This document shows, in pieces, positions 4,374-14,401 of a DNA stretch of 64,000 nt. Location: NCBI RefSeq assembly GCF_014647495.1, contig NZ_BMPH01000003.1, positions 62,001 to 126,000 of the forward strand, given 5' to 3'. The notes under the pieces are model-generated. The model saw only the letters and a list, made by a program, of their open reading frames with translations, did not search any database and was not told the DNA's origin. How positions within the stretch are numbered: the first letter of the stretch is position 1; each line of letters begins with the position of its first letter. A program made the translations under genes and the position numbers. This stretch comes from Glutamicibacter protophormiae. Its GTDB lineage: Bacteria > Actinomycetota > Actinomycetes > Actinomycetales > Micrococcaceae.

Positions 4374-4458
4374 GCCCCTATGGTGGAATTGGCATACACG
4401 GCTGACTTAAAATCAGCTGCCGCAAGGCTTGTGGGTTCGAGTCCCACTGGGGGCACCA
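4374..4458 (+). tRNA. tRNA-Leu (anticodon UAA)
   Basis: Cloverleaf is readable: acceptor GCCCCTA (4374-4380) with TGGGGGC (4448-4454); anticodon stem GCTGA/TCAGC around loop CTTAAAA giving anticodon TAA at 4408-4410; a class II variable arm (CTGCCGCAAGGCTTG region); T-loop GGTTCGAGTCCC; encoded ACCA end (4455-4458). The 85-nt length and long variable arm fit leucine. Its 3' end is the insertion site of the integrative element; the element's left end regenerates the complete tRNA. Confidence 0.95.
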
Positions 4459-4459
4459 C
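4436..4459. repeat. attL core (24-bp direct repeat, tRNA-Leu 3' end)
   Basis: TTCGAGTCCCACTGGGGGCA followed by CCAC, identical to 14378-14401. It covers the T-loop, T-stem 3' side, acceptor 3' strand and CCA of the tRNA gene, the usual attB for tyrosine integrases. Confidence 0.9.
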
Positions 4460-4529
4460 TGCATATGGCCTCTACTTCCCTTTAGTTACGGGGGAGTGGA
4501 AGCCATTGCTGTTTCTGGAAACACTGAAA

Positions 4530-4548
4530 AGGGCACATTTAGGGCACA
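4530..4548 (+). repeat. Integrase arm-type sites, left end (2 x AGGGCACA)
   Basis: AGGGCACA occurs at 4530-4537 and 4541-4548, in the same orientation and 11 bp apart (one helical turn). The same pair with the same spacing recurs at 14264-14282. The copies overlap the end of the integrase gene, 70 bp from the core. Confidence 0.65.
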
Positions 4549-5654
4549 TTCATCCGAGATACTGCCTCATTCAAGGCCACTGCAACGCCGTCCAAATCGT
4601 CATCGAACAGCTCTGCATACACGTCAAGCGTCATCGCAGCTGAGCTATGGCCAAGCATCCGCTGAACTGCTTTCACGTTCGCCCCGGCGCTCACTGCGAA
4701 GCTCGCAGCGGTGTGCCTTAGGTCGTGAGGCGTCACCCTTGGAACGCCTGAATCTATGACAGCTGAACCGAACCAGGATTTACGTTCGCGCATGTCGATG
4801 TGGCGAAGGTACGTTCCATCAGGATTCGGGAACACCAGGTCTTCACGATGCTTGCCCTTGCATAGTTCACCAATGGCAGGCGCCATGAACTCGGGGAACG
4901 GCACAGATCTTTGCTCATGGCTTTTTGGTGTTCCCACCTTGATCTTCCCGCCAACATCGACAGCGTTCTGGTTAACACTCAAGCGCCGGCGAATCATGTC
5001 TACATCTTGCACCCGCAGCGCGGTCGCTTCACCCCACCGCAGCCCACAGTATGCCAGCACGCGAACCAGCGTAGGGTATTTCGCGTGATCCGCCAGATCC
5101 CGTATTTGCTCATGGCTCAGAAAGACATGAGCCTTCTTCTTTTTCCTCGGTAGATCCACTCCACGCGCAGGATTGGTTTGCAAACGGCGGTCTTTTACCG
5201 CGTCATCCAGGATCGCAGCTAGCACACCATAGGCGCGGATTACCGTTGTCGCTGATTTCGGCTTCATTGCGGGCGTAGATTTAGCGTCACCGATAGATAG
5301 TTTCGTAACCCAGGCTTGCACTTCAGTATGGATAATTTCAGTGATGGGCCACTTGCCCCAGGCTGGCTCAACATGAACCCGCCAAGCTATCTCTAGTGGT
5401 CGATAGGCGGAAGGTTTGAGTGTTTGCTTGCGTTCCAGCCAGGATGGCCCCAGAGACGCAATGGTTACGTTTGCTTTGGCGGGATCTATGTAGGTTCCGT
5501 TGGCCTTATCAACTTCCACCGTGGCACGGAATACCTCTGCATCTCGCTTGGTCTTGAAGCCCTTTTTCTTGGTTTGGCTTCGGTCAGGTTTCCGATACCT
5601 GACCATGTACCTAAGTGCGCCATCATTTAGTAGGTATTTCTCAATCGTTGCCAT
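4539..5654 (-). CDS. int: Tyrosine site-specific integrase
   Basis: The 371-residue protein has an N-terminal arm-binding region (MVRYRKPDRSQTKKKGF, an AP2-like integrase DNA-binding fold), a SAM-like core-binding domain around residues 60-170 and a C-terminal catalytic domain. Catalytic residues are visible: Arg206 (CGLRWGEA), Lys244, His310 and Arg313 (HDLRHT), His336 (LGHSS) and Tyr346 (LDVYAELF). It catalyses recombination between the tRNA-Leu attB and the element attP. It abuts the left attachment site, and its start overlaps the 3' end of the upstream repressor gene by 14 nt, so int is probably translated from the repressor transcript. Its base composition is visibly less GC-rich than the flanking chromosome. 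Confidence 0.93.
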   Translation of the reverse strand: MATIEKYLLNDGALRYMVRYRKPDRSQTKKKGFKTKRDAEVFRATVEVDKANGTYIDPAKANVTIASLGPSWLERKQTLKPSAYRPLEIAWRVHVEPAWGKWPITEIIHTEVQAWVTKLSIGDAKSTPAMKPKSATTVIRAYGVLAAILDDAVKDRRLQTNPARGVDLPRKKKKAHVFLSHEQIRDLADHAKYPTLVRVLAYCGLRWGEATALRVQDVDMIRRRLSVNQNAVDVGGKIKVGTPKSHEQRSVPFPEFMAPAIGELCKGKHREDLVFPNPDGTYLRHIDMRERKSWFGSAVIDSGVPRVTPHDLRHTAASFAVSAGANVKAVQRMLGHSSAAMTLDVYAELFDDDLDGVAVALNEAVSRMNVP

Positions 5655-6420
5655 CGGCTGAATCCTTCAACGCCTTCTTGAGATCTTCTCGAACGAGGCT
5701 TGCTTCAACGGATTTTGTAGCTATACCGAGAATAGTTTCCTTGATCCTAGCGACCCAAAGATTCATATGGCCGCCAAGGTAGGGCAGAGATGCTACCTCT
5801 GTGGCCTGACCTTCGCCGTTAATGTGCCACAGCGATAGCGATTCATCATCTTTAAGATTCATAGCGTGATAATGAGCCTGGAACATTAGGCGTTGTTCAG
5901 CCTCGTATCCATCGTCGCCCAGTGGGAAAAGCATAATAGTGTTCTCGAGTTCGGTGTCTGCTTTTCGCATGACTTTATGAGCGCTATGTAAGGGATCATC
6001 ATTCCTTGCATGCGCCTCAGCGCCGGGAGGAAAATAGAGCTCTTTCAGCGGCTCCTGATTATCGAGCAGGCGAAGACCGTTGGCCCATTCCCATATCTCA
6101 CCTTCGGTTTGTCCCTTTGGGGCGGCGGTCACCTGTTCGCTCATATCGTCACTAGGTGAGTTCGCGGGGAACAGTAGGGCGTTAGGGTTTACGTTCAATG
6201 CGACAGCTAAGGCCATGAGTTCATCAGCATCGACGCGTCTTGTCCCGGCTTCAATTTTCTGAAGACCACTAGCGGAAATCTTCACTCCAAGCTTTTCTAG
6301 TCTGTCTTCAAGTTCGCGAAGGGATACTCGATCGCTTCGGTATCTCTTAATGTTCGCGGCCACAGTTGCCCCGGTTTTGCCTATATCGCGGCCACGTTCA
6401 CGCTTCTTCTCAGGTTCCAT
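5641..6420 (-). CDS. XRE-family transcriptional repressor of the element
   Basis: The N-terminal ~75 residues form a Cro/CI-type helix-turn-helix (GATVAANIKRYRSDRVSLRE, then KLGVKISASGLQKIEAG). The remaining ~180 residues are acidic and without a motif I recognise; there is no HExxH (ImmA-type) protease motif. The frame is open back to an ATG at 6459, but MEPEKKRERG at 6420 is the more typical N-terminus and keeps the divergent promoter region free. It probably represses the divergent xis-rep operon and its own int-containing transcript, keeping the element integrated. Confidence 0.8.
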   Translation of the reverse strand: MEPEKKRERGRDIGKTGATVAANIKRYRSDRVSLRELEDRLEKLGVKISASGLQKIEAGTRRVDADELMALAVALNVNPNALLFPANSPSDDMSEQVTAAPKGQTEGEIWEWANGLRLLDNQEPLKELYFPPGAEAHARNDDPLHSAHKVMRKADTELENTIMLFPLGDDGYEAEQRLMFQAHYHAMNLKDDESLSLWHINGEGQATEVASLPYLGGHMNLWVARIKETILGIATKSVEASLVREDLKKALKDSADGND

Positions 6421-6442
6421 ATAAGAAACACTACACACCATA

Positions 6443-6472
6443 TTGACATCACGCCACATTAGAGATTAGTGT
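6443..6472 (+). promoter_or_regulatory. Candidate promoter of the xis/replication operon
   Basis: TTGACA at 6443-6448 is a perfect -35 hexamer; the -10 at 17-18 bp spacing is weak (TTAGTG/TAGTGT, 6466-6472). It overlaps the upstream end of the palindromic operator at 6473-6505. Confidence 0.4.
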
Positions 6473-6505
6473 TTCCAGTAGAGCGTAACTAATGCTCTAT
6501 TGGAA
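6473..6505. promoter_or_regulatory. Palindromic operator in the divergent repressor/xis region
   Basis: TTCCAGTAGAGC (6473-6484) and GCTCTATTGGAA (6494-6505) are 12-bp inverted arms with one G-T mismatch and a 9-bp centre. It lies between the divergent repressor and Xis genes, the natural place for the element's lysogeny switch operator. Confidence 0.6.
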
Positions 6506-6525
6506 CTAATAGGGAGGACAGGGAA

Positions 6526-6732
6526 ATGACTACAGTCACCATCCCCGAGGTCGAAGTACTCCATACTCCGGCAGCTTTGGGGGACCGGCTCGGCTTGTCA
6601 GTTGGAGCACTCGCTCAAATGCGATATCGGGGCAATGGGCCTCGATTCATAAAACTAGGTGGACGTCAGGTTCGTTATCGAGAGTCAGATATCCAAGCCT
6701 GGCTCGATCAGCAGACCAGGGATCGCACCTAA
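6526..6732 (+). CDS. AlpA/Xis-like winged helix-turn-helix protein (excisionase or activator)
   Basis: This 68-residue protein has the HTH_17/MerR-like layout: LGDRLGLSVGALAQMRYRGNGPRFIKLGGRQVRYRESDIQAWL (helix-turn-helix, then the wing G..RYR..D...WL) covering residues ~17-60. Such proteins act as excisionases or transcriptional activators in actinobacterial phages and integrative elements. A strong ribosome site (GGGAGG at 6511-6516) precedes the ATG. It is the first gene of the rightward operon, divergent from the repressor. Confidence 0.85.
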   Translation: MTTVTIPEVEVLHTPAALGDRLGLSVGALAQMRYRGNGPRFIKLGGRQVRYRESDIQAWLDQQTRDRT

Positions 6733-6767
6733 AATCTCTATCTCGCAACGCGGGAGGGAAAGCAGAA

Positions 6768-7046
6768 ATGCCAACAACTGAATCGACAGACAAAAACGGT
6801 CTAACAACTGTCTACCGAGGCGAAGGGGCACTGATCCCGCAAAAGGATCTAATCACCCATCTTCGCAAAGAGTGCGGTCACTCACTCAACGCGGCCAAGG
6901 CAATCGCTAAGGAATGCCGGACGCACCAGAATACGGCTAACCGATGGTTGCCGACAGGCTGGGTAGATGTGCTCCACCCGCCCAAAGTTTTATTCGTTCG
7001 CAGGCTCTCAGTTGAACAGCGAATGATGCACCAGAGAGATGACTAA
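6768..7046 (+). CDS. Hypothetical element protein (92 aa)
   Basis: Starts at ATG 6768 after GGGAGG (6751-6756). It contains a helical segment (KDLITHLRKECGHSLNAAKAIAKECRTHQNTANRWL) that could be a small DNA- or RNA-binding helix-turn-helix, with basic residues around it. The next gene starts 3 bp after its stop, so it belongs to the same operon as the Xis-like gene. I do not recognise a family. Confidence 0.65.
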   Translation: MPTTESTDKNGLTTVYRGEGALIPQKDLITHLRKECGHSLNAAKAIAKECRTHQNTANRWLPTGWVDVLHPPKVLFVRRLSVEQRMMHQRDD

Positions 7047-7049
7047 CCA

Positions 7050-7835
7050 ATGTTCCGAAAGAATGACCGCGTGACTCTACGCGACGCATGGGGAGAACCG
7101 GGAACCATCGTCAAGGTCACCAAGAACGAGATCCGAGTCCGCTGGGATGACGGGCTCGAAACCCCAGTTCACCCGCAGCAACTCGCCCACATCTTAGAGG
7201 CAGAAAAAGACGGTAGCTACTCCGACCAAGAACCAGCTACCGCCAACGAAACCAACACTCAAGAAAAGGATGATTCCATGAACAACATTACCAAGTACAC
7301 CACTGCCCAGCTAGTCGCCGAAGCCGACCGCCGAGGCGTACCCGTCCCCGCCAACCTCCGCGCCGAAAACCCACCAGCCGGCTTCAAGCTGGAGTACCAC
7401 TGCGCATGTGGCATGGGCTGCACCCCCGAAGATCTGAATACCGAAGAAAAATGTCACATCATTGGACACAGTTTCGACGGCCCCGGCGTGTACCTCGACA
7501 GCTCCAGCGTGCAACTGAACAGCAATTGGACCGCGAAGCACGGCATCACGTTCCACCTGTCCAACTACAAGTCCCAGGACCGTGACGGCAACTGGGTCGA
7601 AAGCAGCTGGACCCGCGACGAACTGTCACAGCTCCCAGCCATGGTTACCAAGGTCCTAAGCACCATCGACTACGCCGCCGCGAAGGAGTTCTTCGAGCAG
7701 CACCCCGAACACTTCGACCGCGTACCCGGCGTTGGAGCACTCGCAGTGCTAGCGGACCAGAACAATCTCAGCGCCCCCGAAGCCTTCCAGGCATACATGG
7801 ATCTGACCAAGCAGCGGAGCGTCGAAAATGCGTAA
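7050..7835 (+). CDS. Hypothetical element protein with N-terminal SH3/KOW-like domain
   Basis: 261 residues. Residues 1-50 (FRKNDRVTLRDAWGEPGTIV... IRVRWDDG.....VHPQQLAHI) look like a small SH3-like beta-barrel. A ~25-residue acidic linker follows, then a second region beginning at an internal ATG (7278) that has its own ribosome site AAAAGGATG nearby. The second region has a Cys/His cluster (YHCACGMGCTPEDLNTEEKCHIIGH, read as CxCxxxC...C...H) suggestive of zinc binding. Both parts share one frame, so this may be a fusion with a shorter second product from 7278. Function unknown. Confidence 0.65.
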   Translation: MFRKNDRVTLRDAWGEPGTIVKVTKNEIRVRWDDGLETPVHPQQLAHILEAEKDGSYSDQEPATANETNTQEKDDSMNNITKYTTAQLVAEADRRGVPVPANLRAENPPAGFKLEYHCACGMGCTPEDLNTEEKCHIIGHSFDGPGVYLDSSSVQLNSNWTAKHGITFHLSNYKSQDRDGNWVESSWTRDELSQLPAMVTKVLSTIDYAAAKEFFEQHPEHFDRVPGVGALAVLADQNNLSAPEAFQAYMDLTKQRSVENA

Positions 7836-7944
7836 GACCGTCCAGAGCCTCGCACAGGCCGCTTTCTGGGCTACTGGCTTTATCGCACTCGTAACCATCC
7901 CGCAGCTGGTCTGCACGGCAGTAGGAGCTCCGATTGCATATTGA
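7828..7944 (+). CDS. Small single-TM peptide (38 aa)
   Basis: ATG at 7828 overlaps the end of the previous gene (stop at 7833-7835); the ORF ends at TGA 7942-7944. The product starts MRKTVQSLAQAAF and has one hydrophobic segment (WATGFIALVTIPQLVCTAV). The position inside a tightly packed operon and the overlap on both sides support translation, but there is no clear ribosome site, so confidence is limited. Confidence 0.45.
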   Translation: MRKTVQSLAQAAFWATGFIALVTIPQLVCTAVGAPIAY

Positions 7945-8137
7945 TCCACGAGCCTTCGTAGACAACATTCATGTGGTCGTAGTCGAAGTAGACAAGCCCG
8001 ACAGCGTGCACTACCGCCGACGCACTTACTTCAACTTGCCCAGCGCCCAGCGAGCCGTTGACCGGGCCACCGAACGCGGACAGTCCGCAAAGCTGATCCT
8101 TTGCAAGCTAGTGCCAGCAGGTGAAGCCGATGCATGA
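7934..8137 (+). CDS. Hypothetical element protein (67 aa)
   Basis: Likely starts at TTG 7934, seven bases after GGAG (7923-7926). The short protein has a beta-strand-rich start (NIHVVVVEVDKPDSVHYRRRTYF) and an amphipathic helix (PSAQRAVDRATERGQSAKLIL). It overlaps the small membrane ORF upstream and the following gene by a few bases. No family recognised. Confidence 0.6.
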   Translation: MHIDPRAFVDNIHVVVVEVDKPDSVHYRRRTYFNLPSAQRAVDRATERGQSAKLILCKLVPAGEADA

Positions 8138-8423
8138 CCAGGATGCGCAACGTGCCCAGTTCATCAGCTCGAACGCCAAGGCCCGTGAGATCTTCCTCGA
8201 AGGCTACGAACGTGGCTACAAGGCCGCCATGGACGAACTCGACGACCGAATCGGTCTAGCCCTGGTCAGTCAGTCCTACCTCGACGACCCGGCAGGCTAT
8301 CAACGCCGGTTCGCCAAGTCCGCAGCTAACGCGGTGGACGTATATGCAGCAAGGCAAGCCATGGGCACCCACAATACCGGCCCAGAGCCAAAACCGCTTT
8401 ACCCGCTCCGACTCGTCGGATAA
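8130..8423 (+). CDS. Hypothetical element protein (97 aa), alpha-helical
   Basis: ATG 8130 follows AGGTG (8119-8123) at a normal distance; a GTG at 8121 is an alternative. The sequence is mostly helical with charged residues (REIFLEGYERGYKAAMDELDDRIGLAL) and no recognisable motif. It overlaps the previous gene by 8 nt and is followed by a strong terminator hairpin, so it ends the first small-gene block. Confidence 0.6.
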   Translation: MHDQDAQRAQFISSNAKAREIFLEGYERGYKAAMDELDDRIGLALVSQSYLDDPAGYQRRFAKSAANAVDVYAARQAMGTHNTGPEPKPLYPLRLVG

Positions 8424-8441
8424 CCAACAAATACAAACCCT

Positions 8442-8471
8442 GAAGACCCCAGCAAACCCGCTGGGGTCTTC
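8442..8471 (+). terminator. Hairpin terminator
   Basis: GAAGACCCCAGC (8442-8453) and GCTGGGGTCTTC (8460-8471) form a perfect 12-bp stem with a 6-nt AAACCC loop, between the small-gene block and the ATPase gene. Confidence 0.8.
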
Positions 8472-8503
8472 TGCTTACCTATCCATCTAGGAGAGGATGA
8501 CTC

Positions 8504-9751
8504 TTGTCCGATGCGCTACGAACCAAGAAACTACTACTGACCCCCGCGAGCCACATCAAGCCACGTCGCCAGAAATGGCTATGGGAACCATTCAAGGGGC
8601 AAGGCGTAATCCCATTGGGAACCGCTACCATCGTCGCCGGCAAGGGCGGTGAAGGTAAAACCACCTTCATGCTTGACCTCGCAGCGCAAGCTTCACGTGG
8701 ACAGCTATCCGGCGATCTCTACGGCAAACTGCTCACCACGATCATCATCGGCCCCGAAGATGACTGGGATACGGTCATGGTTCCTCGGCTCATGGCAGCG
8801 GGAACCGATCTGGATCGGGTATTCAAGATCGACGCTCAAACCGAGGAAAACAACCTCACGCGAGAACGTTCGCTGAAGTTCCCGCTGGACGTTGACTTGA
8901 TCGAACAAGCAATCCAGGAAACCGGGGCAAAAATCATCGTCGTGGACCCGGCGCCATCGGTCATGGGCGGCGACATGAACAAGGCACAGGAGGTCCGCAG
9001 TTCCTACGAACCGCTGATCGCACTGGCCCAGAAATACGAGTTCTCGCTGATCCTGATCAATCACTTCAACAAGGGTGGAACATCAGTAAGCGGCGGGCTC
9101 TCGGGTTCCCACGCATGGCGTGACCTTACCCGCTCATACCTAGCATTCGCCACGAACGATGAAACCGGGGAGAGGATCTTCAGTCAGGACAAGAACAACT
9201 ACGGAGAGTCAAAAGGCTCTTACAAGTTTGCTCTCGAATCCGTAGATGTGGATCTTGGCGACGGGGAAACCAGCAACGTCGCCAAGGTGAGATTTCTCGG
9301 TGAAACAGACGAAACCGTCGGGGATCTCATGGCACAAGGGCGCGGGGATGACCCGGAGCACGAGGACCGCAACGCAGCGCAAGCTTTCATCCTGGACTTC
9401 ATCAAGCAAACCGAAACATGGGAAGCGAAAGCCGGTGACGTACTCAAAGCAGGGCGTGGCGCAGGCTTCTCAGACATGGATCTGAAGAATGCTCGCAGGC
9501 GAAGTAAGTCACCAAAAATCGTTTCTCGAAAGAGCGATTTCAGCAGCGGTTGGGTTTGGGCGATTGAAGACAAATTAGGCGAAGGTGTCACCCAAGGTGC
9601 TGTAGGTGTCACGGTTCCAGAACATGACACCTTAGACACCTTCATGACACCTTCGACCGATCTGGCACCTGTGATCTGCAAATTGCACGGCACAGAAGAC
9701 ATCGAAGAATGCTACACCTGCACGCAGATCCGAGAGGCGGCCTCAGCGTGA
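8504..9751 (+). CDS. RepA/RecA-like AAA ATPase, probable replication helicase of the element
   Basis: 415 residues, starting at TTG 8504 seven bases after a strong AGGAGAGG (8489-8496). Residues 30-60 carry a Walker A motif GKGGEGKTT (46-54) in the context typical of hexameric RepA/RSF1010-like and phage helicases (AAA_25 type); Walker B is KIIVVDPAPSV with Asp148. A DEK-type catalytic context follows (LILINHFNKGG, SGSHAWRDLTRSYL). The C-terminal ~100 residues hold a winged-helix-like region and a final Cys/His cluster (CKLHGTEDIEECYTC) that may bind zinc. It most likely unwinds or loads the element's origin for autonomous replication after excision. Its 3' coding part contains an iteron-like repeat cluster. 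Confidence 0.85.
   Translation: MSDALRTKKLLLTPASHIKPRRQKWLWEPFKGQGVIPLGTATIVAGKGGEGKTTFMLDLAAQASRGQLSGDLYGKLLTTIIIGPEDDWDTVMVPRLMAAGTDLDRVFKIDAQTEENNLTRERSLKFPLDVDLIEQAIQETGAKIIVVDPAPSVMGGDMNKAQEVRSSYEPLIALAQKYEFSLILINHFNKGGTSVSGGLSGSHAWRDLTRSYLAFATNDETGERIFSQDKNNYGESKGSYKFALESVDVDLGDGETSNVAKVRFLGETDETVGDLMAQGRGDDPEHEDRNAAQAFILDFIKQTETWEAKAGDVLKAGRGAGFSDMDLKNARRRSKSPKIVSRKSDFSSGWVWAIEDKLGEGVTQGAVGVTVPEHDTLDTFMTPSTDLAPVICKLHGTEDIEECYTCTQIREAASA
9582..9653. repeat. Iteron-like cluster inside the ATPase gene (5 x AGGTGTCA/TGACACCT)
   Basis: Five copies: AAGGTGTCA 9582-9590, TAGGTGTCA 9603-9611, TGACACCTT 9625-9633, AGACACCTT 9634-9642, TGACACCTT 9645-9653. Two point right and three left; starts are 21, 22, 9 and 11 bp apart, close to whole or half multiples of the helical turn. 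The copy at 9645 is read in a different codon phase from the others, so a repeated peptide does not explain it. Candidate replication origin or binding site for the ATPase. Confidence 0.6.
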
Positions 9752-9954
9752 AACCTGAAACCAAGAAACGGCCTTTCCTCAACATCCGACGCAGAACGTG
9801 GGCACACGAAGACGGTTCACTGACACCGGGCTTAGCTCTCCACCAGGCGGGGAAAGTCTACGCCCATCTCACTGCCGACGAAGCTCGCGCCATGGCCGAC
9901 AAACTACACGACTATGCCGACAAATTAGATCAGGAGTTCCAACATGAGCACTAA
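9748..9954 (+). CDS. Small element protein with HLTADEAR helix motif, copy 1
   Basis: GTG at 9748 overlaps the ATPase stop (GTGA), giving a 68-residue product. The C-terminal half is AHLTADEARAMADKLHDY followed by ADKLDQ, which recurs almost exactly in the gene at 10555-10863. The N-terminal half has basic strand residues (FLNIRRRTWAHEDG). Translational coupling to the ATPase is likely. It forms a two-gene cassette with the overlapping gene 9944-10171. Function unknown. Confidence 0.65.
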   Translation: MKPETKKRPFLNIRRRTWAHEDGSLTPGLALHQAGKVYAHLTADEARAMADKLHDYADKLDQEFQHEH

Positions 9955-10171
9955 CGTGCCTACTGCCCCGGTAATAGATTCATGGCCAAACCGAACCTAC
10001 CCAGGGCACTACATCATCGAAGTTCGCTGCCCCTACTGCACCAAAACGCACACCCACGGCGTGCAAAGCCTGACAGCCCCCGCAGGGCACCGTGCCGCGC
10101 ATTGTTCCGCCACTATGCGCAACCCCGGATATTTCGTCGCGTTTACTGAAGAACTGAAACCGGGCAACTAA
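9944..10171 (+). CDS. Small CPxC/His-rich (zinc-ribbon-like) protein, cassette copy 1
   Basis: 75 residues, start ATG 9944 overlapping the preceding gene. It shows VRCPYCTKTHTHGVQSL, a later AGHRAAHC, and a C-terminal aromatic strand (GYFVAFTEEL). The pattern strand-CPxC-x(2-4)-H-x-(H/Y)G ... H is repeated in the gene at 10875-11087, the partner in the second cassette. Probably a small zinc-binding fold; no known family is claimed. Confidence 0.65.
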   Translation: MSTNVPTAPVIDSWPNRTYPGHYIIEVRCPYCTKTHTHGVQSLTAPAGHRAAHCSATMRNPGYFVAFTEELKPGN

Positions 10172-10186
10172 AAACACTCATTCGAG

Positions 10187-10218
10187 AGCGGTCACTGGAC
10201 TCTGCCCCAGTGGCCGCT
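10187..10218 (+). terminator. Hairpin after cassette 1
   Basis: AGCGGTCACTGG (10187-10198) pairs with CCAGTGGCCGCT (10207-10218), a 12-bp stem with one G-T pair. It separates the first cassette from the next small genes. Confidence 0.6.
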
Positions 10219-10240
10219 TTCCACATTCCAAGGAATACCC

Positions 10241-10378
10241 ATGATTGACCCATGCGACCGGGAACAGGTCATAAAGCTACTGCGCCGAGCAGCAGACCAC
10301 ATCGCACAAGGCGTTTCCTCGACACAGATCCACGCGCAACTGCACCACCTTGCAGACCACCTAGAGAACGGTGACTAG
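10241..10378 (+). CDS. Small helical element protein (45 aa)
   Basis: ATG 10241, preceded by AAGGA (10229-10233), to TAG 10376-10378. Product begins MIDPCDREQVIKLLRRAADH and ends HHLADHLENGD. The LH(H)LADHLE end resembles the LHDLADQLE helix of the neighbouring HLTADEAR proteins. It lies in a compact series of tiny genes on the same strand. Confidence 0.55.
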   Translation: MIDPCDREQVIKLLRRAADHIAQGVSSTQIHAQLHHLADHLENGD

Positions 10379-10380
10379 AC

Positions 10381-10554
10381 ATGGCCGGCTATTACTACTC
10401 AGACCGACAGATCCAGACCTACTCAGAACACGCCCAAGCCGCCGTCCTATGGGAACGCGCCGCCCACTGGGAACAGAACGCGAACTACTGGAAACACCGC
10501 GCCGAATCGGCAGAACGCCGAATGCTCGAACACCACTGCGAAGGAGACCACTAA
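10381..10554 (+). CDS. Small element protein rich in aromatic and charged residues (57 aa)
   Basis: ATG 10381 to TAA 10552-10554; the next gene's ATG follows immediately. The product is MAGYYYSDRQIQTYSEHAQA followed by a Trp/Glu/His-rich helix (VLWERAAHWEQNANYWKHRA). Heptad-like spacing suggests an amphipathic or coiled-coil helix. No family recognised. Confidence 0.55.
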   Translation: MAGYYYSDRQIQTYSEHAQAAVLWERAAHWEQNANYWKHRAESAERRMLEHHCEGDH

Positions 10555-10863
10555 ATGACCTGCAACCGCCCGCCCTACATCGGCTCAGTCAGAATCCAAG
10601 AGTGGATCACCAAAGACAAACAGCGCACCAACGGCATCCAGCTACGCGGCGCATGGGGACTAGCCGCCCACCTGACCGCCGACGAAGCCCGAACCCTGGC
10701 AGACACCCTCCACGACCTCGCAGACCAATTAGAGCAGGCCACGGAGGCACCAGAGCACCGGGAACCACCCCGAGTCCTACAGCCGGCCTACACCAGCCGT
10801 AGCACCCTCACCGCAGCAGACGGACACCCCGAACCACTGCTACCGGCCACCAGTGCGGACTGA
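10555..10863 (+). CDS. Small element protein with HLTADEAR helix motif, copy 2
   Basis: 102 residues from ATG 10555, directly after the previous stop. The middle contains AAHLTADEARTLADTLHD then LADQLEQ, matching copy 1 (9748-9954) at nearly every position of the helix pair. This copy has a longer N-terminus with a conserved-looking IRIQEWITKD-like strand and an extra ~30-residue proline-rich tail. It pairs with the zinc-ribbon-like gene at 10875 as the second cassette. Confidence 0.65.
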   Translation: MTCNRPPYIGSVRIQEWITKDKQRTNGIQLRGAWGLAAHLTADEARTLADTLHDLADQLEQATEAPEHREPPRVLQPAYTSRSTLTAADGHPEPLLPATSAD

Positions 10864-10874
10864 GGAAACGAGCC

Positions 10875-11087
10875 GTGAACATCACCCCAGACAACATCAG
10901 CGACATTGCCGTATCAGTGCAATGCCCAGCATGTGACTACGTCCACGCCTACGGGCGACACGAATTCAATACATGGCCGCCGACCCCCGGCAGCAAAGTA
11001 CGCATCAGATGCAAAACGCACCGCTCAGCAACCCCGAGCGAACGCAACTGGATCTACGCAATCTCACACATCACTATCCAATTCTGA
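10875..11087 (+). CDS. Small CPxC/His-rich (zinc-ribbon-like) protein, cassette copy 2
   Basis: 70 residues from GTG 10875, with GAGG (10862-10865) upstream. It has VSVQCPACDYVHAYGRHEF and a later RIRCKTH, then a C-terminal aromatic strand (WIYAISHITIQF). The Cys/His layout parallels the product of 9944-10171. It follows copy 2 of the HLTADEAR gene in the same order as in cassette 1. Confidence 0.6.
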   Translation: MNITPDNISDIAVSVQCPACDYVHAYGRHEFNTWPPTPGSKVRIRCKTHRSATPSERNWIYAISHITIQF

Positions 11088-11101
11088 AAGGCAACAAAAC
11101 C

Positions 11102-11986
11102 ATGGAAAACAACATGATCAACTTCGCCGGCAACACCAACAACAACCAGAACGAAAGCGACGAACTGCATATGAACTACAACATCGAAGACCGCCTCGAC
11201 CAGACCCACACCATCACCCCACGACTGCGCGGCATCACCCGAGCAATCCGAAAGCACAACCTCAAAGCACCAAAGATCCTCACCGAAGATCTCATCACCA
11301 ACCAGCAGCAAGCAGCAGCACGAGTCCGCGATCTTGCACCCGCCGCCAACATCCCGAACCTCGAAGCCGCAGCACAAGCCATCATCGCCGGCGAAGACCC
11401 CAGCGAACACATGGCAAATTACGCGGCATGGTACGGAATCCACGCCCTCACCGAACAGATCGTAACCACCGCACGCGCACAGTTCATCGACGCACTGAAC
11501 GAGCACGCCGACGACCTCACCGAACAGGTACGCCGAACCATCTTCGAACCAGCTCTACGCCGGCTCAAGACCCTCATCGAGAAGCACCCCGGCAAGAACT
11601 GGGATCTTGAAGCAGCAGTCCAGAACAAGGACTACGCCCACGCCCAGCTCATCGACAAGAACCAAGACATTGCCGAACAGCTCGATCAGGCCTACATGCT
11701 GCGCGCCATGTTCTACAACAGCAACGCCTTCACCACCCCCGCCGCCGTCGTAACCACCGCCGGCTACAAGGGCAGCACCAACACCGCAAGCCTGCAATGG
11801 TGGGCAATGACCATCGGCAACGGACACACTGCGCACCTGCCCACCGCCACCGAATGGGAAGACCTGCATAACAGCAAGGAACACGCCGAGGTGCGCAAGG
11901 CAGACGCGGAAGCCCTCGCCGCCGACCAGCCCGAAGCGCAGGTTGTGCAGACCCTCATGCACGAAGGCCGCATGATGTCCCGCTAA
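11102..11986 (+). CDS. Unknown 294-aa alpha-helical element protein
   Basis: ATG 11102 is preceded by AAAGG (11087-11091) and matches the start of the coding-like sequence; the frame is open further upstream but overlaps the previous gene. The protein is Asn/Gln-rich at the N-terminus, then largely helical and charged (LTEDLITNQQQAAARVRDLA, IEKHPGKNWDLEAAVQNKDY). There are no Cys pairs, membrane helices or nucleotide-binding motifs. Size and position, last in the rightward operon and before a hairpin, are reminiscent of structural or scaffold-type proteins of actinophages, but I cannot assign a role. Confidence 0.7.
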   Translation: MENNMINFAGNTNNNQNESDELHMNYNIEDRLDQTHTITPRLRGITRAIRKHNLKAPKILTEDLITNQQQAAARVRDLAPAANIPNLEAAAQAIIAGEDPSEHMANYAAWYGIHALTEQIVTTARAQFIDALNEHADDLTEQVRRTIFEPALRRLKTLIEKHPGKNWDLEAAVQNKDYAHAQLIDKNQDIAEQLDQAYMLRAMFYNSNAFTTPAAVVTTAGYKGSTNTASLQWWAMTIGNGHTAHLPTATEWEDLHNSKEHAEVRKADAEALAADQPEAQVVQTLMHEGRMMSR

Positions 11987-11992
11987 ACCACA

Positions 11993-12024
11993 GGTAGCCC
12001 GCACCTCAACAGGTGTGGGCTACC
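11993..12024. terminator. Strong hairpin between convergent genes
   Basis: GGTAGCCCGCACCT (11993-12006) pairs with AGGTGTGGGCTACC (12011-12024), 14 bp with one G-T pair and a CAAC loop, just after the 294-aa gene stop. Confidence 0.75.
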
Positions 12025-12245
12025 CACCAAAAGACACGGCGTGAACGTCACCAGCGATCTGCAACACGGCAAGAGCCGGAACGATGGCCAGGAGCGACAA
12101 CGACGACCGTCGCACAGATCGGCCAGCGCCTAGGCGACACACAAAAGATAGCGGTTGACCAAGAGAGGAATCCTCTACAAGACGCCGCTAGTGTCGCCCT
12201 ACAGTCCCTCGACCCAATACACGCGGGTCGGGGGACAAACCAATA
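12025..12245. other. Structured non-coding segment of the element
   Basis: About 220 bp between convergent genes without a credible ORF. It contains several self-complementary stretches: the palindrome CGCCTAGGCG (12127-12136), AGAGGAATCCTCT near 12166-12178, and GACCC...GGGTC near 12212-12231. It could be a small RNA, a cis-acting site or simply spacer; no known RNA family is recognised. Confidence 0.3.
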
Positions 12246-12791
12246 TCACCACACCCCACGCCACAACGACCGGCCAGCAGTCAACGGCACAGGATCCATC
12301 GGAGGCTTCCCAGCCTGCACCCAACCCCGCACCCACGGACGCAACCGAGCACGTCGCAATTCCTCATACCTCAACGACACAGTATGCAGCCGGTACCCAC
12401 AGAACCTACGACCAAACACCCCAGGCTCAAACCAGTACATCGCCACCACAGGCTCAGCACCAGCAAGCACAGCAGCCCTATGCGCAATGAACCTATAGGA
12501 CACCTCAGCATCCCTAAACGTGTAGCAGCGCGGGAACTCACCAGACACTAACGAACCATGCAACACATCAAGGAACGCGCCCTCCATCGTCCCCTCACCC
12601 ACAGCATGTATCCGCCCCTGATCCCACACCTCACGGTAACGCTCATCAGGATCATCCAGCGACCGCTTATCACGCTGAGGCAACCAACTAGGCGTGACCC
12701 TACTGCGCGTCCGCTCCACCAGATACACAACCACAGCAACCAACGCAGCAACACCAGAGACAACCAAAGACAGCACAGCAACCATCCCCAC
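12246..12791 (-). CDS. Unknown membrane-anchored protein, only reverse-strand gene in the right half of the element
   Basis: 181 residues with an N-terminal membrane helix (VAVLSLVVSGVAALVAVVVYLV), then a basic stop-transfer (ERTRSR) and a ~150-residue cytosolic domain starting with KRSLDDPDERYREVWDQGRIHAVGEG. Start may be ATG 12791 or ATG 12785. The opposite strand has overlapping open frames of low-complexity proline/threonine/glutamine composition that look like shadows. The gene is transcribed against the element's main operon, a common arrangement for cargo genes such as superinfection exclusion or defence. No family recognised; cargo role is inference. Confidence 0.65.
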   Translation of the reverse strand: MGMVAVLSLVVSGVAALVAVVVYLVERTRSRVTPSWLPQRDKRSLDDPDERYREVWDQGRIHAVGEGTMEGAFLDVLHGSLVSGEFPRCYTFRDAEVSYRFIAHRAAVLAGAEPVVAMYWFEPGVFGRRFCGYRLHTVSLRYEELRRARLRPWVRGWVQAGKPPMDPVPLTAGRSLWRGVW

Positions 12792-12850
12792 AGCCTAACC
12801 GCACCACACCCCAGCAACACCAACAGACCCACACACAGAGACGAACACCA

Positions 12851-13156
12851 ATGGCCACATCACGCACAGGCACAGCCCAATGGTTCAACGTGCGCAACCA
12901 CGCCCTACGCCTCGCACAACAGAACGACCAAACACAATGCCCATACTGTGGGATCCCACTCGACTACAAGAACAAGAGAGCACCCAACGGCGCACAAGTG
13001 GATCACATCGTGCCACACTCACGCGGAGGCAGCGACAGAATCACAAACCTAATCGTGTGCTGCGCCCGCTGCAACCAATCCAAATCAAACAGATCAGCAC
13101 CCAAGCAACACACCAAACCCCAGAGCAAACCACTATGGACAAGCCGCAAATGGTAG
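12851..13156 (+). CDS. HNH endonuclease
   Basis: 101 residues with a complete small HNH fold: first zinc knuckle CPYCGIPL, the HNH signature QVDHIVPHSRGGSDRITNL and the second knuckle VCCARCNQSK. The product is short and stand-alone, like phage HNH proteins that lie next to the packaging site and assist terminase cleavage. In this element it is not followed by terminase genes; instead a G-rich tract follows its stop codon. It may cut cos-type sites during packaging by a helper phage, or act as a homing or defence nuclease. Confidence 0.88.
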   Translation: MATSRTGTAQWFNVRNHALRLAQQNDQTQCPYCGIPLDYKNKRAPNGAQVDHIVPHSRGGSDRITNLIVCCARCNQSKSNRSAPKQHTKPQSKPLWTSRKW

Positions 13157-13461
13157 AGCAAACCCAATGGGGGGAGGGGGTTAGACCGGCCTCGCGTTCG
13201 TACAACAGGCATAGCTAGAATATTTCCCCCCGAGCTGCTGACAGCCCCGCGAAGCCTAGGGGAGAGGGGGTAAAACGCCTTTTTCGAAGCCTCGTACCTC
13301 CAGCATTGCGTTATATTTTCAGCCGATTTCCACAGATGGTATTTTTCCGCAGATGGTGCCGATCTTCCTGTGAGGAGATTGGGAATGCCCCCTACCAAAA
13401 TGATCAGCGGCTTTCTCGCTGGGGGCGAAGCTAACGCTAAGGCAACCTTCGAACAAACAAA
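13157..13461. other. Intergenic region with G-rich tracts after the HNH gene
   Basis: Holds no credible gene. It contains GGGGGGAGGGGG at 13170-13181, TTTCCCCCC near 13222-13230 and AGGGGAGAGGGGG near 13258-13270, then an AT-rich stretch with two CAGATGGT copies (13333 and 13350 regions). G tracts directly after an HNH gene are where packaging (cos) sites sit in some phages; this is only a candidate here. Confidence 0.35.
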
Positions 13462-13487
13462 AACGGCACTCACGAATGAGTGCCGTT
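13462..13487. terminator. Perfect hairpin upstream of the NYN gene
   Basis: AACGGCACTCA (13462-13472), loop CGAA, TGAGTGCCGTT (13477-13487): 11-bp perfect stem with a stable CGAA tetraloop and A residues upstream. It insulates the NYN gene from the preceding region and may act in both directions. Confidence 0.65.
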
Positions 13488-13580
13488 GGGCCACGGCTGG
13501 CTGAGGACAACCGGGCGGGGTATGCAATAACTATACACACAGATTCCCCTAAAAATGCAACTATGTGATTTGATAATCAT

Positions 13581-14222
13581 GTGAATGAGATCCCGAAACC
13601 TGCGCCACCAGCTGAGCGCCTTATGGTGTACGTAGACGGTTTCAATCTTTACCACGGATTGCATAGCACGAGTAAAAGACAGCACCTATGGCTCGATCTA
13701 GTCAAGCTTTCGAAATCGCTCCGACCCAATCAGAAACTCGTGGGCGTTAGGTACTTCACTGCTACAGTGCTGAATGATCCAGATGCTCAATCTCGACAAG
13801 CACACTATATCGATGCGTTGCAAGCTAAGTACCCCAATCTGATTCAGGTCATCTTGGGTAGGTATCAGGCGAAAACAAAGACATGTTTCAAATGCCAGAA
13901 CATGTATACCTCGTATGAGGAAAAGGAAACCGACGTCAACATGGCGCTTTCGATAGCAACTGATGGTCTAAAAGGTTTGTACGATTCGGCTTTGATTATT
14001 TCTGGCGATAGCGACATGGCCCCCGCGGTCAAGGCCGCTCAGTCGGCCGGCCGGCCTCTGTTTATAGCGGCTGCTTTCCCACCCGGGCGCAACTCGCAGG
14101 AACTTCGATCTTTGATGCCAGCGTCGTTTCCCATCAACGCCTATAAAATTCGCAAGGCACAACTGCCTAACAAGTTCGATGCGCAGGGCAAGACATTCCA
14201 ACGCCCCGCGAAATGGCGATAA
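13581..14222 (+). CDS. NYN-domain (PIN-like, LabA-type) ribonuclease, probable cargo
   Basis: 213 residues with PIN/NYN acidic catalytic positions: LMVYVDGFNLYHGL (first Asp), YEEKETDVNMALSIATD (Glu/Asp pair) and LIISGDSDMAPAV (last Asp). A CFKCQ pair in the middle may bind zinc. The NYN family comprises metal-dependent RNases. The GTG at 13581 is the longest start; an in-frame ATG at 13623 leaves the domain intact. It stands alone behind its own hairpin at the right end of the element, is visibly richer in A+T than the chromosome, and lies just before the attachment site: the usual place for cargo such as defence genes. A defence role is inference. Confidence 0.85.
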   Translation: MNEIPKPAPPAERLMVYVDGFNLYHGLHSTSKRQHLWLDLVKLSKSLRPNQKLVGVRYFTATVLNDPDAQSRQAHYIDALQAKYPNLIQVILGRYQAKTKTCFKCQNMYTSYEEKETDVNMALSIATDGLKGLYDSALIISGDSDMAPAVKAAQSAGRPLFIAAAFPPGRNSQELRSLMPASFPINAYKIRKAQLPNKFDAQGKTFQRPAKWR

Positions 14223-14263
14223 TAGCTTCTTTTGTACCTTACTGCGATCTGTAGATAGCGCAG

Positions 14264-14282
14264 AGGGCACAGAAAGGGCACA
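14264..14282 (+). repeat. Integrase arm-type sites, right end (2 x AGGGCACA)
   Basis: AGGGCACA at 14264-14271 and 14275-14282, 11 bp apart, in the same orientation as the pair at 4530-4548. They lie 95 bp from the right core repeat. In the excised circle the two pairs flank the core, as expected for attP arm sites. Confidence 0.65.
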
Positions 14283-14377
14283 TCCTCCGAAGAGCAGCGG
14301 TGATTTAGCGTTATCCAAAGTAGTCAAAAACCTCTAAAATCCGCAGAACTAGCGCAGTGGCCAGAGGAACTAGAGGT

Positions 14378-14401
14378 TTCGAGTCCCACTGGGGGCACCA
14401 C
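14378..14401. repeat. attR core (24-bp direct repeat)
   Basis: Identical to the tRNA-Leu 3' end at 4436-4459. Only the 3' fragment of the tRNA is present, so this marks the right junction of the element rather than a second tRNA gene. Confidence 0.9.

Follow-up and report, generated by a model that had tools for sequence, protein, structure and literature searches.

Described cos-Type Satellites and the Glutamicibacter Element

Phage-inducible chromosomal islands (PICIs) are typically around 15 kb in size and lack phage structural and lytic genes; they occupy unique att sites that prophages never use, have genes found only in PICIs, and their induction, interference and packaging are phage-dependent (PMC6092414). 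The Staphylococcus aureus pathogenicity islands (SaPIs) SaPIbov4 and SaPIbov5 are islands without structural genes that carry a phage cohesive-end (cos) site and need the terminase of a helper phage (PMC5052747, PMC6092414). The Escherichia coli PICI EcCICFT073 possesses an integrase (Int), AlpA, its own replication gene and two functional cos sites, with no small terminase subunit (TerS) (PMC6092414). The distal end of the Streptomyces satellites MulchRoom and MiniFlayer bears an HNH gene (PMC10690885), and in HK97 HNH proteins promote cos cutting (PMC9410871). A stretch of 64,000 nucleotides of the soil bacterium Glutamicibacter protophormiae (contig NZ_BMPH01000003.1, positions 62,001 to 126,000; hereafter, the window) contains a 9,942 bp element inserted in a tRNA-Leu gene. 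Judging by its sequence, the element is most probably (rough probability 0.85) an integrated cos-type phage satellite, whose packaging we infer from the features described here.

A cos-type PICI-like satellite is a known kind of element. The locus resembles SaPIbov4 and SaPIbov5 in being an integrated island with a phage-type cos and without structural genes. A helper-type cos and the lack of a terminase of its own agree with the packaging of cos-type SaPIs and PICIs, whereas two relatives of the element (islands L048 and L065) do have TerS. The element differs from the cos-type SaPIs, as these are described, in host phylum, in size (9.9 against about 14 kb), in its island-borne HNH gene, in having cos of two terminase types and in showing no recognisable capsid-resizing gene. 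At 9,942 bp it is smaller than a typical PICI of around 15 kb (PMC6092414); like PICIs, it has no structural or lytic genes among its 19 open reading frames (ORFs), which were scanned against Pfam and PHROGs. As to exclusive genes, a candidate in the element is the gene of its signature protein, which was found in none of the phages, plasmids and viral contigs searched. Int, an AlpA-like regulator, a replication gene, the absence of TerS and two cos sites are shared with EcCICFT073, in which, however, both cosN are identical to that of one phage (phage 4), while the element has two different phage cos types. Of the set carried by capsid-forming PICIs (own capsid, portal, large (TerL) and small terminase subunits and HNH) the element has HNH alone. 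MulchRoom and MiniFlayer are likewise actinobacterial satellites with HNH at the distal end, but they carry terminase, portal and capsid genes, which the element lacks, and the genomes of their helpers end in direct repeats. The Arthrobacter phages Zucker (cos type A) and MrSmee (type B) share the HNH–cos order with the element, but are complete phages, each with a single cos and with genes for terminase, portal and capsid (the type labels A, B and C were coined in this analysis).

The scan of the 19 ORFs gave no confident match to the capsid, tail, terminase and portal genes of prophages, nor to a relaxase or to the FtsK/TraB translocase of actinomycete integrative and conjugative elements. 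An earlier note made from the sequence alone had seen no capsid, tail, large terminase, relaxase or FtsK/TraB gene and had named terminase, portal, capsid, relaxase or translocase genes as evidence against its satellite reading; none was found. Its suggestion of a new class was too strong, since the element would work like cos-type SaPIs and PICIs, though with a separate gene family and in a different host group. Searches of open-licence PMC papers, judged by title and the start of the abstract, returned none on Glutamicibacter or Arthrobacter satellites and none on one satellite with cos of different terminase types; most subscription papers lie outside this scope. Relative to the literature found, the signature protein family, the host group, the mixed cos array and the island-borne HNH look new.

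Two cos-Like Sites beside an HNH Gene

The two cos-type sites at 13168-13341, which the earlier note had missed, are the most informative feature of the element. The features on which its reading depends are as follows.

4374-4458, + strand: tRNA-Leu(taa), the integration target (ARAGORN)
4436-4459: attL (left attachment site), exact 24 bp repeat; empty site in G. soli
11102-11986, + strand: 294-aa signature protein, all-helical model; absent from the phages, plasmids and viral contigs searched
12851-13156, + strand: HNH endonuclease of a phage cos-end family (PF01844, 4.7e-14; last gene of Zucker, 57%)
13168-13239, + strand: cos-like site 1, type A, core 13212-13235 (phage-only profile, E 1.8e-6)
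13290-13341, + strand: cos-like site 2, type C (phage-only profile, E 3.1e-6)
14378-14401: attR (right attachment site), exact 24 bp repeat; empty site in G. soli

Among phages, the best DNA match of the HNH gene is to the final gene of Zucker, which lies about 110 bp from the genome end. The HNH protein matches 241 of 50,697 phage records, all at less than 60% identity and mostly from Cutibacterium/Propionibacterium. Among the 60 matches listed of these 241, three Arthrobacter, two Rothia and eight P. freudenreichii genes lie no more than about 230 bp from the right end, and a Brevibacterium HNH is 770 bp from it; a few Cutibacterium HNH genes among the matches listed are found at other coordinates, which may reflect where the records start. 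HNH places were found in 69 of 395 Micrococcaceae genomes. The flanks were studied in 27 loci, comprising the 26 strongest places besides the element's own and one weak second place in genome G060. In 21 of them, HNH adjoins cos and a Zucker- or MrSmee-type TerL is located downstream within a few kb; the other six are without this TerL, one (L069) keeping only a 41-residue TerL match. HNH peptide patterns run on the genome contigs gave no confirmed hit. The HNH gene as a homing or interference gene was considered and rejected, as its relatives adjoin cos; a packaging helper is the more likely role.

The Zucker record ends with ...GGGCAT and starts with AGCGAAAAATATCCCCCCGAGC. Across the equivalent of this end junction, about 50 bp past the HNH stop, the element reads GGCATAGCTAGAATATTTCCCCCCGAGC. 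The pattern TAGCKAN{3,9}CCCCCCGAGC matches the window at one place and none of 100 shuffles. A looser pattern (ending CGRGC) has just two matches in the entire genome, one in the element and one next to the HNH gene of a resident prophage, and none in the reversed control. A related motif was present upstream of the terminase in 14 of 16 viral-contig loci with an L047-type terminase (scanned out of 18, L219 and L220 being left out). The type A pattern as such matches 71 stretches in viral contigs, with HNH upstream in 7 and TerL downstream in 10, and most of these stretches are probably chance matches. BLAST of site 1 against phages returned no match.

Site 2, about 50 bp beyond site 1, reads CCTCGTACCTCCAGCATTGCGTTATATTTTCAGCCGATTTCCACAG, in agreement with prophages L058, L063 and L066, which have a MrSmee-type large terminase (60-70%). 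Type A loci match the Zucker TerL best and type B and C loci that of MrSmee, with cross-matches mostly 24-32% identical. Among 14 viral contigs with an L058-type terminase, two begin at the type C motif and two others (L199 and L200) have a type B-like start; the type C motif was not seen in the rest. The exact type C 21-mer was found in 2 of 395 genomes, both times in the islands of the window and of G. soli (reversed control, 0), and in no viral contig. BLAST of site 2 against phages gave three weak unrelated matches only.

Profiles were built from phages and prophages only (A2 from 23 sequences, B from 8 and C2 from 5) and run over 383,829 bases, including 20 chromosomal control loci. In the window, A2 matched site 1 with 26.1 bits and C2 matched site 2 with 25.3 bits, at the E values listed above; no further profile match appeared at E<=2, and none of the 20 control loci matched. 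First, thinner profiles had given E values of 0.0037 for site 1 and 2.3e-4 for site 2. In-sample cross-type scores of type B and C phages reached at most 16.8 on A2, and those of other types up to 23.3 on C2; the type call of site 2 therefore rests also on its counterpart in G. soli, which scores 36.9 bits and has the half-sites TCGC and GCGA, and on the contig starts. Sites were counted in 35 phage or prophage loci and nine islands, with L060, L069, L074, L209, L214 and L217 kept outside the phage group. One cos was present in 33 of the 35 phage or prophage loci, none in two (L070 and L071) and two in no locus; most of these loci trained the profiles, so that the single matches are not independent, while the absence of a second site is. 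The window has two sites, the G. soli island three (the third weak, 14.2 bits) and three further islands one each. Island L164 (genus g24) shows two weak, sub-threshold cos-like stretches on opposite strands, at 10905-10966 (+) and 11252-11345 (-).

Insertion Site and Gene Content

The 24 bp att repeat is the 3′ end of tRNA-Leu(taa), and attL and attR are its only copies in the 3.83-Mb genome; the earlier note had already described the repeat. Each of the 18 genus genomes searched, among them that of the window, contains DNA similar to the right flank. The sister species G. soli has an uninterrupted tRNA-Leu site, at which the left (96.8% identical) and right (91.1% identical) flanks meet with an overlap of exactly 24 bp; therefore, the insertion is 9,942 bp long. 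The G+C content is about 0.62-0.70 in the flanks and 0.49-0.61 inside the element.

The remaining features of the element are listed below.

4539-5654, − strand: tyrosine integrase (PF00589, 2.5e-22; phrog_1, 2.8e-68)
5641-6459, − strand: Cro/C1-type repressor (HTH_3, 3.6e-5; phrog_11503, 2e-13)
6526-6732, + strand: AlpA/xis-like regulator, divergent from the repressor (HTH_17, 1.4e-7; phrog_66, 6.1e-7)
6768-8423, + strand: small ORFs 6768-7046, 7050-7835, 7828-7944, 7934-8137 and 8121-8423, without confident family
8504-9751, + strand: RepA-like AAA_25 ATPase (AAA_25, 1.3e-24; phrog_10729, 3.3e-33)
9583-9652: five AGGTGTC heptamers in both orientations, a candidate origin inside repA
9748-11087, + strand: small ORFs 9748-9954, 9944-10171, 10241-10378, 10381-10554, 10555-10863 and 10875-11087, without confident family
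12246-12791, − strand: possible 181-aa membrane-type protein, no family; frame open in the window and in G. soli
13581-14222, + strand: NYN protein of the HEC-09 candidate defence family, cargo (PF01936, 6.4e-12; PADLOC HEC-09, 2e-66)

The families assigned in the earlier note to the integrase, the repressor/Xis switch, the RepA-like ATPase, HNH and NYN were recovered by Pfam and PHROGs, and the small central ORFs, most of which it could place in no family, had no confident match there either. Several of the ORFs at 6768-8423 recur in related islands, and those at 9748-11087 have relatives in other islands. The repA ATPase gene was found in one of the 18 genus genomes, its own. Five AGGTGTC heptamers lie in a 70 bp stretch of the repA 3′ end, out of 11 in the whole 64 kb, and this iteron-like cluster is possibly a replication origin. 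In the G. soli island, too, the NYN gene matches PADLOC HEC-09 (1.2e-36). HEC is a name for candidate defence genes, and the NYN gene is plausibly anti-phage cargo.

ORFs 9748-9954 and 10555-10863 look duplicated, with a 77% DNA repeat (9861-9934 and 10665-10738) and weak DUF6907 similarity; the pair recurs in island L048. ORF 12246-12791 opposes the direction of its neighbours and is fairly conserved in G. soli (non-synonymous differences, pN, 0.020; synonymous differences, pS, 0.066). Positions 10240-13000 of the window and 9100-11700 of L160 have a strong A/C excess on the coding strand (GC skew -0.26, AT skew +0.46), which is weaker but present in related islands and at the right end of phage Zucker.

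Signature Protein and Related Islands

The signature protein is encoded in 8 of 395 Micrococcaceae genomes, its own included. It was found in none of the phages, plasmids and viral contigs searched and, among 396 genomes drawn from the order, in its own genome only. The gene is under purifying selection (pN 0.010 and pS 0.076 against G. soli). Its model has a mean predicted local distance difference test score (pLDDT) of 74.5, and fold searches with it gave best E values of 0.26 (PDB) and 1.3 (BFVD). The gene before HNH in L065 was excluded from the family after alignment. The earlier note had counted an absence of similar elements anywhere against itself; instead, the signature protein occurs in seven further Micrococcaceae genomes, and islands of the family lie at other sites and are without TerL. 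L056 is bounded by 43 bp repeats at tRNA-Thr, 10.8 kb apart, and L161 by 50 bp repeats at tRNA-Thr, 11.3 kb apart; L065, without the signature protein, has a 19 bp repeat at tRNA-Ser, 9.4 kb apart. The HNH frame of L056 is broken, and in L163 an apparent insertion sequence, judged by eye, follows the signature gene.

In the G. soli island, the block corresponding to 10380-12813 has 97.4% identity and the stretch corresponding to 13170-13355 has 83%; HNH is missing. This island has a serine-type recombinase and a D5-primase-like replication protein, and thus the packaging block occurs with other integration and replication modules. A TerS gene (phrog_1496) follows HNH in L048 (12654-12998) and L065 (13616-14110), with no TerL seen, a SaPI-like arrangement. 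In the Sinomonas gamaensis island L051, cos is followed by a short gene that encodes an Mtd_N tail-fibre domain (5801-6572); this gene could be a leftover of a phage or could affect host range.

Candidate Helper Prophage

A prophage of 45,266 bp (L072, L073 and L149) is located on the window's contig at C3:288145-333454, bounded by a 44 bp att repeat at tRNA-Met. By similarity, it encodes HNH, TerS, TerL (45% to Zucker), portal, scaffold, capsid, connector and tail proteins and has a cos; the frames of TerL, portal, capsid and a 1542-aa tape-measure protein are open. Its cos is of type A and is part of the A training set. This resident Zucker-like prophage is a candidate helper for the element.

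Alternative Explanations

The satellite reading of the earlier note is supported by evidence that it did not have: cos sites next to an HNH gene of a packaging family, a candidate helper, an empty att site and islands sharing a protein not found in the phages searched. Several observations weigh against it. Four of the eight signature islands (L160, L161, L163 and L164) showed no HNH next to the signature gene, and four of the nine islands scanned have no cos at the threshold. Site 1 has GCTA, as against GCGA in most phages, as well as a variant left half-site; the looser type A pattern was composed when the prophage cos was already known, and a stricter one would match the element alone. The element is about one fifth of the prophage length, with no recognisable capsid-resizing gene. 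A prophage whose structural genes decayed away, leaving the early region and the right end with HNH and cos, would also explain the HNH–cos order, which is the same as in phages. L069, with its short TerL match, looks like such a remnant, and the integrase DNA is similar to four Gordonia phage records, with 2% of the query covered. Such decay would not account for two cos types in tandem, seen in 0 of 35 phage or prophage loci, for a signature protein under purifying selection that seven other genomes share and that was absent from the phages searched, or for intact att ends and alike island sizes (9.4-11.3 kb) at different tRNA genes, and we consider this origin quite improbable. We give very little credence to an integrated self-replicating plasmid or minimal mobilisable island, spread by conjugation or transformation, on which cos is incidental: the RepA-like ATPase and candidate iterons would suit it, but no relaxase or translocase was found among the 19 ORFs, there was no plasmid match and cos is conserved in several relatives.

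Within the cos-type satellite reading, site 1 might be the only working cos, with site 2 a relic or a chance likeness and hence one helper type. The halves of site 2 are TCGT-N12-GCGT instead of TCGC-N12-GCGA, its C2 score is just above the best cross-type score, three other islands carry a single site, and the window and G. soli arrays form a single homologous block, hence one lineage. Against this, site 2 is kept in both species, with canonical halves and a higher score in G. soli, 2 of 14 viral contigs with an L058-type terminase start at the type C motif, and the exact 21-mer is confined to these islands; a single working site seems somewhat unlikely. It is rather probable that the tandem array combines different terminase specificities, serves as a platform for unrelated helpers and moves, together with the signature gene, between satellites with different integration and replication modules. 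As both known arrays belong to one block lineage, the use of several helpers is a supported hypothesis, not a rule.

Proposed Mechanism and Significance

In the proposed cycle of the satellite, a helper phage would relieve the repressor, and Int and the xis-like protein would excise the element. The RepA-like ATPase would replicate it into concatemers, perhaps starting at the repeats in the 3′ end of repA, and the helper terminase, aided by the HNH of the element or of the helper, would cut at the fitting cos, so that satellite DNA is packaged into helper particles. Zucker-type phages, among them the resident 45-kb prophage, would use the type A site, and phages like those in L058, L063, L066, L189 and L191 the type C site. 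The islands of G. soli and G. ardleyensis retain cos, but no HNH was seen in them; there the helper would have to supply it. The signature protein may adapt heads or terminase, which is a guess.

The comparisons suggest that cos satellites without terminase genes exist in Micrococcaceae. Packaging by cos would give a reason for the stand-alone HNH gene on the island, the signature protein offers a handle for finding more satellites, and a candidate helper is present in the same genome. With one packaging signal, a cos satellite depends on helpers that have the same signal; if the proposal is true, a cos array for different terminases would be a simple route to several helper types.

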